In this document: piece after piece, positions 652-17,113 of the stretch
How positions within the stretch are numbered: the first letter of the stretch is position 1
Layout of the letters: every line of letters starts with the position of its first letter
IMG/VR virus record: IMGVR_UViG_3300024243_000006
Coordinates: 62,001-126,000 of that record
Strand: one strand, 5' to 3'
DNA: 64,000 bases
From: a virus
Notes under the pieces: generated by a model
The model's input: the letters and a program-made list of their open reading frames with translations, nothing else
Database searches by the model: none
What the model was told of the DNA's origin: nothing
Program-made: the position numbers and the translations under genes

Positions 652-728
652 AGGGTATTAGTTTAGTTGGTTAAAACACTGGCTTGTCACGCCAGAGATC
701 GCGAGTTCGAGTCTCGTATATCCTGCCA
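652..728 (+). tRNA. tRNA-Asp(GTC), first copy
   Basis: A 77-nt cloverleaf with encoded CCA. The 7-bp acceptor pairs AGGGTAT with ATATCCT (one G-U pair). The anticodon arm CTGGC/GCCAG has loop TTGTCAC, so the anticodon is GTC. The T arm GCGAG/CTCGT has the canonical loop TTCGAGT. The discriminator is G, as usual for Asp tRNAs. A second, diverged tRNA-Asp lies at 2217. Confidence 0.95.
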
Positions 729-1195: not shown

Positions 1196-1281
1196 GGGGG
1201 TATCAGGTCTGTTTCAGACCGATTCCGGGCGGCCCACACGATCAGTGGGACGGGTGAGAGGATTGCTCACTGCCCCCGCCA
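1196..1281 (+). ncRNA. tRNA-like RNA element 1, CCA-ending, non-canonical T loop
   Basis: The 86-nt element closes with a 7-bp acceptor-like stem, GGGGGTA with TGCCCCC, followed by G and CCA. Inside are three hairpins: GGTCTG/CAGACC with a 3-nt loop, CCCAC/GTGGG (1234-1250) with loop ACGATCA, and a T-arm-like GTGAG/CTCAC with loop AGGATTG. Neither the D arm nor the T loop fits a normal tRNA. If the middle hairpin is an anticodon arm, the anticodon would be GAT, but position 33 is C rather than U. Element 2 has the same length, the same GCCA end and a matching T loop. Confidence 0.5.
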
Positions 1282-1286
1282 GTTTT

Positions 1287-1372
1287 GGGAATATATAGGC
1301 CAAGGTACAACGGCCGCTTTCAAAGCAGTATTCATGATATCTGCGCAGGAGAATTACCTGCTATTCCCGCCA
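1287..1372 (+). ncRNA. tRNA-like RNA element 2, CCA-ending, non-canonical T loop
   Basis: The 86-nt element has acceptor-like GGGAATA paired with TATTCCC, then G and CCA. A D-arm-like hairpin GGCC/GGCC has loop AAGGTACAAC, which contains the expected GG. A possible anticodon loop TTTCAAA would give anticodon TCA (opal reading), though its stem has a C-A mismatch. A hairpin GCAG/CTGC follows, then a T-arm-like GCAGG/CCTGC with loop AGAATTA. That loop resembles element 1 (AGRATTR) although the two stems differ in sequence. Only GTTTT separates the element from element 1. Confidence 0.5.
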
Positions 1373-1386
1373 GTTAGATTAGTTTT

Positions 1387-1492
1387 GGGGAGTGGGTGGA
1401 CTGGTTCGAGTCCAGATAGAAAGGTTATACCCTACCCGCATGGCAAAGGATCGCGCGTCCGACTTTAGGTTCGAATCCTAAACTCTCCACCA
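1387..1492 (+). tRNA. tRNA-like gene, isotype uncertain, 106 nt with oversized centre
   Basis: The acceptor GGGGAGT pairs with ACTCTCC (one G-U), followed by discriminator A and CCA. The T arm TTAGG/CCTAA has the canonical loop TTCGAAT. A D-arm-like TGGA/TCCA hairpin with GG in its loop follows the acceptor; the same stretch also reads as a second T-arm-like CTGG-TTCGAGT-CCAG. About 30 nt more than a class I tRNA lie between the arms, and no clean 5-bp anticodon arm can be drawn. It may be a class II tRNA, an interrupted tRNA or a rearranged one. The next gene starts 17 bases downstream. Confidence 0.45.
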
Positions 1493-2216: not shown

Positions 2217-2293
2217 GGGTGGCGTGGTGTAATTGGCTAACACGCTGGACTGTCTATCCGGAATTTGGGGTTCAAATCCCCCGTTGCCCGCCA
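2217..2293 (+). tRNA. tRNA-Asp(GTC), second copy
   Basis: A 77-nt cloverleaf with encoded GCCA end. The acceptor GGGTGGC pairs with GTTGCCC through several G-U pairs. The anticodon arm CTGGA/TCCGG has loop CTGTCTA, giving anticodon GTC. The T loop TTCAAAT is canonical, but the first T-stem pair is a T-C mismatch. The sequence differs widely from the first tRNA-Asp, so the two are not a recent duplication. Confidence 0.9.
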
Positions 2294-12125: not shown

Positions 12126-12821
12126 ATGGATTCCGCGAAATATCCCAGGTCGCTGCATTGGCCGAGTTCCCCAGGAACTACCTCAGATGACCGTTTCATT
12201 ACACAGGCACAAGCGCTCGCATTTCTAAATGTCGAGACTGTGCTTACCGAAAAGCTTGACGGTGGAAATACTACCATAACGAGAGATGCCTTTTTTGCAA
12301 GGTCTCATGGTGGAGAACCAGCTCACCCGTCATTCAATCTTCTACGCACCCTTCATAAGAATTATCTATGTAGGGCCATTGATAAAAATATATCAGTATT
12401 TGCTGAGTGGTGCTTCGCAGTACACTCAATTAGGTACTCGATGCTTCAAGATTATCTCAACATTATCGCCGTCAGGAATGATGAAACCGGCGAATGGTGG
12501 GATTGGGACGAAGTATGTTTGATGGCTGATCACCTCGGCTTCCCCACTGTACCAGTTCTACTCCGTGGAACGTTTACAGACATAGGCGCCTTGGAAAAAA
12601 CTATGACCACGTTCTCTGGCTTGTCGTCTTTGTACGGCCCAACAAGAGAAGGTGTAGTTCTAAGAAAAGTCAAGGGTGTTGCTGAGATCAAAGACGAGCG
12701 TGGTCTTTGCTTAGATGGTCTTGCTAAGTGGGTAAGAGAAGATCATGTTCAAACGGACGAACATTGGAGCAAGAAGAAAGTTGAAATTCAGCCAACCATA
12801 TCGGCACTGAGTTTTATGTAA
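12126..12821 (+). CDS. RNA ligase family protein
   Basis: A 231-residue protein starting with the KYPRSLHWPSSPGTTSDD signature of a phage and bacterial RNA ligase family. The nucleotidyl-acceptor motif EKLDGGN gives Lys43 as the adenylation site. EGVVLR near 185 is motif IV and the KWVRED segment near 207 is motif V. It should seal RNA ends using ATP. With three tRNAs, tRNA-like RNAs and a tmRNA encoded nearby, repair of cleaved tRNA is a fair inference. No polynucleotide kinase is seen in the window. Confidence 0.85.
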   Translation: MDSAKYPRSLHWPSSPGTTSDDRFITQAQALAFLNVETVLTEKLDGGNTTITRDAFFARSHGGEPAHPSFNLLRTLHKNYLCRAIDKNISVFAEWCFAVHSIRYSMLQDYLNIIAVRNDETGEWWDWDEVCLMADHLGFPTVPVLLRGTFTDIGALEKTMTTFSGLSSLYGPTREGVVLRKVKGVAEIKDERGLCLDGLAKWVREDHVQTDEHWSKKKVEIQPTISALSFM

Positions 12822-16710: not shown

Positions 16711-17113
16711 GGGGGCGTTTTGGATTCGACCGGGTAACAGATAGGAATAGTGCAAGCCGATCAAGGTAACTCAGATCGTTATAAGCGTTACAAAAAACAA
16801 ACTAGTTGACGACTATTCATTCGTGTACGCAAACGCAGGCAGAGGCTTCGGCGCTCCTGTAGTAGCATACGCCTAATTCCGATTTAGGCATGTGGACTCT
16901 GTGTTCCATATATCCAAACACAGATAAGTGGTTGAACGCACTGACATAAACATTGTTCAAAAATGGAGTAGCCCGAAAGGGAGGAGGCGTCTATCATTTG
17001 GCGTCAGGGGATAAAATGAATACTTTGCCTATTTAGAGAAATGGGATAAGCTTGTGAACGACTTGAAATTGACGTTATGCGACACGAGGGTTCGACTCCC
17101 TCCGCCTCCACCA
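16711..17113 (+). ncRNA. ssrA: tmRNA
   Basis: The 5' end GGGGGCGTTTTGGATTCGAC is diagnostic of tmRNA. It pairs with the 3' end CGCCTCC, followed by ACCA. The T arm GAGGG/CCCTC has loop TTCGACT. The internal tag frame ends at TAA 16874-16876 with ...GAPVVAYA. If it resumes at GAC 16808 after TAGTT, the tag has 22 residues starting DDYSFVYANAG. The terminal AYA differs from the common LAA end recognised by host proteases. The RNA should rescue stalled ribosomes using host SmpB. An HNH gene follows at once. Confidence 0.95.

Follow-up and report, generated by a model that had tools for sequence, protein, structure and literature searches.

Phage T4 carries in its tRNA cluster the stable RNAs C and D (species 1 and 2), which are not tRNAs and whose function is unknown. 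The reason for the many tRNAs of phages is still under debate. As far as the available part of its description goes, the array of jumbo phage XacN1, like the one studied here, combines many tRNAs with a CCA-adding enzyme, an amber suppressor tRNA and tRNA-processing genes (PMC5852040), and the accessible portions of two further reports describe phage tRNAs that counter tRNA-targeting defences (PMC10264068, PMC11555353). Irregular tRNA-like genes are also already known, including polycistrons from soil metatranscriptomes; according to the available portion of the source, these were not charged by E. coli synthetases in vitro and are of unknown function (PMC7609411).

The locus described here, three tandem tRNA-like elements, lies in a 64,000-nt stretch of DNA (the window) that corresponds to bases 62001 to 126000 of a 149,317-nt virus record. 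The window is 99.99% identical across 12.4 kb to a 395,127-nt contig (IMGVR_UViG_3300024252_000004; G001 in the coordinates below) and represents the same phage, which is therefore a jumbo phage of at least 395 kb. ARAGORN finds 44 tRNAs and one tmRNA in G001, and the tRNA array is redundant, with several isoacceptors at two to three copies. PolyA_pol (CCA-adding enzyme) domains occur twice in the contig, the phage enzymes lying at 200710 and 390054, and RNA ligase domains likewise occur twice. The contig also encodes a RecA with relatives in about 50 other viral contigs, mostly at 42 to 58% identity. One RNA ligase domain (PF09414, 84.8 bits; window 12234-12692, G001:320736-321194, plus strand) and the tmRNA gene (16711-17113, plus strand) fall within the window and are given for context only.

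Several features apart from the three elements were also noted. The predicted tmRNA tag, DDYSFVYANAGRGFGAPVVAYA, is without the usual ALAA end, which is kept in the tmRNAs of related phages. An amber-type tRNA (cta; G001 302460-302537) is called Pyl by ARAGORN, and the TAG stop is rare in this phage (5 of 64 long ORFs). An ORF at G001 149048-149389 has a GSGGQ motif in its translation and looks release-factor-like by eye, and a DNA polymerase III alpha-like ORF (L007 36-3686) contains a putative, intein-like stretch, CLVGKTHVIMKNEVKRLDHIEVGDELF.

Structure and setting of the three elements

Elements 1 to 3 fill a 319-nt noncoding gap between an ORF stop at 1189 and the next ORF start at 1509. 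Their array neighbours are an ordinary tRNA-Asp(gtc) gene upstream (652-728, plus strand) and a second tRNA-Asp(gtc) gene downstream (2217-2293, plus strand), and G+C content rises from about 0.35 to 0.41 to reach 0.47 to 0.57 at the elements. The ORF that follows (1509-1775) carries a 30-bp tandem duplication near its end (1711-1772), so that LPYPDKVEWM occurs twice.

Element 1 (1196-1281, plus strand, 86 nt) has a 7-bp acceptor (1196-1202/1271-1277), a D-like hairpin (1206-1220), a linker (1221-1232), a second hairpin (1233-1249) with the loop ACGATCA, a T-like arm (1254-1270) with the loop AGGATTG (1259-1265) and a GCCA end (1278-1281). After a 5-nt spacer, GTTTT (1282-1286, plus strand), element 2 (1287-1372, plus strand, 86 nt) has its acceptor at 1287-1293/1362-1368, a D-like hairpin at 1298-1315 with the loop AAGGTACAAC, a second hairpin at 1325-1344 in which a 7-nt loop, TTCATGA (1331-1337), is possible, a T-like arm at 1345-1361 with the loop AGAATTA (1350-1356) and again a GCCA end (1369-1372). 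A 14-nt spacer, GTTAGATTAGTTTT (1373-1386), which starts with GTT and ends with GTTTT ahead of GGG, leads to element 3 (1387-1492, plus strand), an irregular gene of 106 nt with its acceptor at 1387-1393/1482-1488, a T-arm (1465-1481) bearing the loop TTCGAAT, and an ACCA end (1489-1492).

Every element has all 7 acceptor pairs, all 5 T-stem pairs (scored as a 7/5 acceptor/T-stem arrangement), a 7-nt T loop and an NCCA end. The initial annotation had placed three tandem CCA-ended tRNA-like structures here, and these were found where it put them; the shared 86-nt length, 7-bp acceptor and GCCA end that it gave for elements 1 and 2 were all borne out, as was their common AGRATTR T loop (AGGATTG and AGAATTA) in place of TTCRANY. 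For element 3, the canonical T loop and the odd centre stood. The second T-arm-like hairpin reported in that centre (1397-1414, TGGACT-GGTTCG-AGTCCA) takes the place of a D-arm, and a D-arm of 6 bp with GG in the loop is a possible reading of it. Minimum-free-energy folds of the elements were cloverleaf-like, but with a linker of 9 to 12 nt between the first and second hairpins.

As a control for chance, we counted acceptor/T-arm/NCCA structures of the same quality on the plus strand of 200 dinucleotide shuffles of the window. The shuffles gave a mean of 0.135 matches per 64-kb strand, against 5 in the real window, namely, two ARAGORN tRNAs and elements 1 to 3, and only 1 of the 200 shuffles held two matches no more than 150 nt apart. 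In the whole 395-kb contig, AGRATTR-loop structures of such quality were limited to elements 1 and 2. The AGRATTR string itself is common in the window (52 occurrences observed, 62 expected), and the loop is therefore informative only at its position in the structure. That the elements are chance structures of an intergenic gap could be argued from the weak free-energy z-scores of elements 1 (-1.58) and 3 (-0.26); that of element 2 was moderate (-2.67, computed one base off, at 1286-1371), and ordinary tRNAs of the phage range from 0.08 to -1.83. Against chance stand the expectation of 0.135 per 64-kb strand, when three lie within 300 nt, together with the intergenic location, the tight packing and the setting in a tRNA array, and we give this explanation almost no weight. 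Elements 1 to 3 are confirmed as real structures, and their structure and location support their being discrete, tRNA-like RNA genes with CCA ends.

Elements 1 and 2 compared, and the search for relatives

When the acceptors and T-arms of elements 1 and 2 were aligned, all 12 pairs formed in both; 5 were changed on both sides, 1 on one side and 6 not at all. Sliding the partners gave 0 or 1 double changes and 42 to 67% pairing. This covariation is that of two sequences, and 13 of 500 letter shuffles reached the observed values. The T loops are two transitions apart, a likeness with p of ~0.0024 among chance hairpin pairs. It had been proposed that the T-arm stems differ completely yet stay paired. 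The pairing is indeed kept, but the first and last T-stem pairs (both G-C) are unchanged, so that, with 2 of 5 T-stem pairs and 6 of 12 pairs overall the same, "completely" was an overstatement. The two elements also have in common TTYCRRR, located between their first and second hairpins, and the remaining sequence is unrelated. A 3-bp pairing of the linker TYC with the T-loop GRA would have a single changed pair between the two sequences as its basis, and we make no claim for it. No canonical tRNA of the same phage is a clear parent of either element.

Searches for homologues found none. BLASTN against phage genomes gave no real match to elements 1 and 2 and matched element 3 only to canonical T-arm tails. 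A degenerate T-arm/acceptor/CCA pattern run over 2.9 million IMG/VR viral contigs hit this phage only, and a looser pattern hit 39 other IMG/VR stretches, none with a full T-stem and acceptor; in 84,980 GTDB prokaryote genomes, the strict pattern gave 2 chance matches without stems. A covariance model of elements 1 and 2, run on 44 phage records (this phage and 43 related ones), recovered only itself, with weak next matches that included ordinary tRNAs. Searches with flanking proteins returned the same phage only, and a PyrB search returned one relative at 48% identity, without tRNA-like elements in 16 kb. A distant relative whose stems and loop are dissimilar would have escaped these searches, and fragments make up many of the related records. 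Elements 1 and 2, with their 5 of 12 double-changed pairs, are therefore all the covariation there is, and long-term conservation cannot be shown, since no homologue was found outside the phage. The proposal of a distinct RNA class, drawn from a kept loop on different stems, was thus not upheld: no homologue turned up in IMG/VR, the GTDB genomes or the 43 related phage records, which goes part of the way towards the outcome that the initial annotation itself named as refuting, an absence of homologues with covarying stems.

A related 340-kb phage (IMGVR_UViG_3300012931_000759) has irregularities of another sort: six tRNAs, mostly without an encoded CCA, carry inserts of 21 to 55 nt around the anticodon (L111 8583-8700, 11024-11139, 12872-12979, 12982-13117 and 13988-14126; L112 6085-6207). 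The insert of its Ala tRNA encloses a 7-bp plus T-arm minihelix with the loop TTCGATT, and those of the Pro, Gly, Lys and Val tRNAs have a common CTCGGTTC...GAACCA...GAAGC-like motif, a strict form of which turned up in no other viral contig.

Within G001 itself, we found five further irregular tRNA-like elements, all with 7/7 acceptors, four ending CCA and one TCA. They lie at 193248-193341 (94 nt, T loop GCCCGATC, CCA), 211151-211221 (71 nt, T loop TTAAAGT, CCA; RF00005 25.2 bits, below the cut-off of 29), 211379-211451 (73 nt, CCA; anticodon and T loops enlarged, by eye), 211461-211553 (93 nt, TCA; by eye, one more hairpin that resembles a T-arm) and 293858-293921 (64 nt, CCA; too short for a normal anticodon arm; 29.7 bits). 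Most of these came from a scan in which an intact acceptor was a requirement, so that their intactness is in part a product of selection by the scan. Given five such elements with differing T loops, elements 1 to 3 look like one end of a continuum of irregular tRNAs. The acceptor is fully paired in 41 of the 44 ARAGORN tRNAs. The exceptions include tRNA-Asn(att) at 211265 (5/7) and the tRNA at 214615 (6/7), which look like ordinary decay. Departures from the normal tRNA are thus of two kinds, a normal core with a broken acceptor and a broken core with a sound acceptor, and elements 1 to 3 are of the second kind. Decayed and irregular tRNA-like elements cluster at G001 211100-211750 (L051 13100-13750); one of them has an anticodon loop of 9 nt and another a second T-arm-like hairpin. 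Directly after tRNA-Arg(tct), a tRNA-like fold (G001 159431-159521; L049 1031-1121) has a T-like loop GGAAGAT and ends ACAC; it is not above chance background.

Possible explanations: decoding, decay or presentation of the acceptor

Of the features of a canonical tRNA, the 7-bp acceptor, 5-bp T-stem and NCCA end occur in all three elements, the TTCRANY T loop occurs in element 3 only and an anticodon arm with U33 at the right spacing occurs in none. Element 3 has no recognisable anticodon arm. RF00005 did not match elements 1 to 3 at its gathering score or at E<=10; elements 1 and 2 were unmatched by the Rfam tRNA models even at E 10, including RF01852 (tRNA-Sec), which gave element 3 only 14 bits (E 4.6) against a gathering score of 47. 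Divergent tRNAs that nevertheless decode would be a quite improbable explanation. Seven-nucleotide loops can be drawn, TTCATGA (CAT) in element 2 and ACGATCA (GAT) in element 1, and an elbow-less form would recall tRNA-Pyl and type II mitochondrial tRNAs, tRNAs without the TPsiC motif being functional elsewhere (PMC7609411). Yet element 1 has C33 in place of U33, its 12-nt linker and the 9-nt linker of element 2 split the D-like from the anticodon-like arm, element 2 requires a bulge in that arm, elements 1 and 2 match no tRNA model, and the phage has Ile(gat) and Met(cat) tRNAs already, two of each. The evidence speaks against the TCA anticodon once suggested for element 2. Of 64 long ORFs, 26 stop at TGA, so that UGA is a normal stop in this phage and a TCA tRNA is unlikely, and the required arm is poorly paired. 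ARAGORN reports this reading only when its threshold is lowered, and then with mismatches in the stems. We also rejected an Arg-CCG anticodon reading, for which the stems are poor (CGG is the rarest Arg codon), and an intron-bearing tRNA in element 3, for which ARAGORN gives low-scoring fits only.

The explanation that we tentatively favour is that elements 1 to 3 are tRNA-derived, CCA-ended, non-decoding RNAs, mimics that present an acceptor minihelix, for example, as enzyme bait. As tRNA-derived genes within the array, they would probably be transcribed with it and trimmed like tRNAs, giving CCA-ended RNAs of 86, 86 and 106 nt. The acceptor/T-stem half is kept intact, no usable anticodon arm is recognisable, and in elements 1 and 2 the T loop that normally contacts the D loop is gone as well; for these reasons, decoding is unlikely. 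Their most likely use would be to show a 12-bp acceptor minihelix and CCA end to host enzymes that read that part alone. In support are pairing far above chance, five double-sided changes against 0 or 1 when slid, the gap-filling spacing of 5 and 14 nt, the five further irregular elements with sound acceptors, the retained tRNA machinery, the failure of Rfam tRNA models to match elements 1 and 2, and the precedents of FaRel2 and of counter-defence phage tRNAs. Against it, broken tRNAs occur in the same phage and no homologue was found elsewhere. In addition, elements 1 and 2 lack the elbow on which RNase P and CCA-adding enzymes normally rely.

The main rival, and a serious one even though we rate it as somewhat unlikely, is that these are decaying tRNA genes or recombination remnants, a redundant array tolerating duplicated, rearranged, non-decoding copies whose acceptor pairing reflects recent inheritance. 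The redundancy of the array is real, a broken acceptor or a missing CCA is seen in further tRNAs of the phage, T loop and core vary widely among the irregular elements, no homologues were found elsewhere and the recurrence of GCCAGTT...GTTTTGGG at the junctions may be a sign of tandem duplication. Simple decay, however, would leave mismatches, and elements 1 and 2, diverged at most positions and with no clear parent among the canonical tRNAs, keep 12 of 12 acceptor and T-stem pairs, five of them compensated. The position of the cluster directly upstream of the ORF at 1509-1775 could instead point to a tRNA-mimicking leader that regulates this ORF, for instance, by binding a synthetase or other tRNA-binding protein, and tRNA-like folds are known in mRNA leaders. 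A leader would have no obvious need of a CCA encoded at each 3' end, a feature that suits separate tRNA-like products, and three tandem copies inside a tRNA array suit processed RNAs better, making this very improbable.

Returning to non-decoding mimics, toxSAS-type CCA pyrophosphorylases are a described example of acceptor-reading enzymes: the toxSAS FaRel2 pyrophosphorylates a bare acceptor minihelix, selecting by its acceptor pairs (PMC11559606). By analogy, a decoy for such enzymes would be attractive because they are implicated in antiphage defence, and both of the roles raised by the initial annotation, decoy and RNA ligase substrate, are possible; the phage does have an RNA ligase. A bolder version, which we doubt, is that elements 1 and 2 are the founders of a class of acceptor-helix RNAs, phage-specific, elbow-less and CCA-ended, that evolved as bait or alternative substrate for acceptor-reading host enzymes or toxins, the other irregular elements following the same strategy. 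If the elements are non-decoding RNAs with a sound acceptor, they would be direct evidence of a nontranslational role for part of a phage tRNA array and would offer a simple way to test acceptor-decoy counter-defence; decaying copies would, in turn, show how a large tRNA array erodes.

Comparison with known systems

The T4 stable RNAs C and D are longer than elements 1 to 3. Nowhere in the literature searched did we find elbow-less, CCA-ended elements described from a phage array, although this does not prove that none has been reported. For XacN1, the available part of the report mentions one tRNA pseudogene and describes no elements that combine an intact acceptor/T-stem with a noncanonical T loop (PMC5852040). 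The allo-tRNA-like and irregular tRNA polycistrons of soil metatranscriptomes (Mukai et al. 2017, via PMC7609411) are likewise tandem irregular genes with extra features; in the accessible portion of that source, they mostly have 8/4 acceptor/T-stems, and 8/4 or 9/3 is the arrangement expected of allo-tRNAs. The elements here were identified as 7/5, have the AGRATTR T loop (elements 1 and 2) and are carried by a jumbo phage. tRNA-Pyl and type II mitochondrial tRNAs are likewise without the G18G19/TPsiC elbow motifs, but they decode, and their arm spacing is unlike that of the elements here (PMC7609411). The counter-defence phage tRNAs are phage encoded and act against host tRNA-targeting defence; as far as the available text of the two reports goes, they are functional tRNAs and not elbow-less mimics (PMC10264068, PMC11555353).
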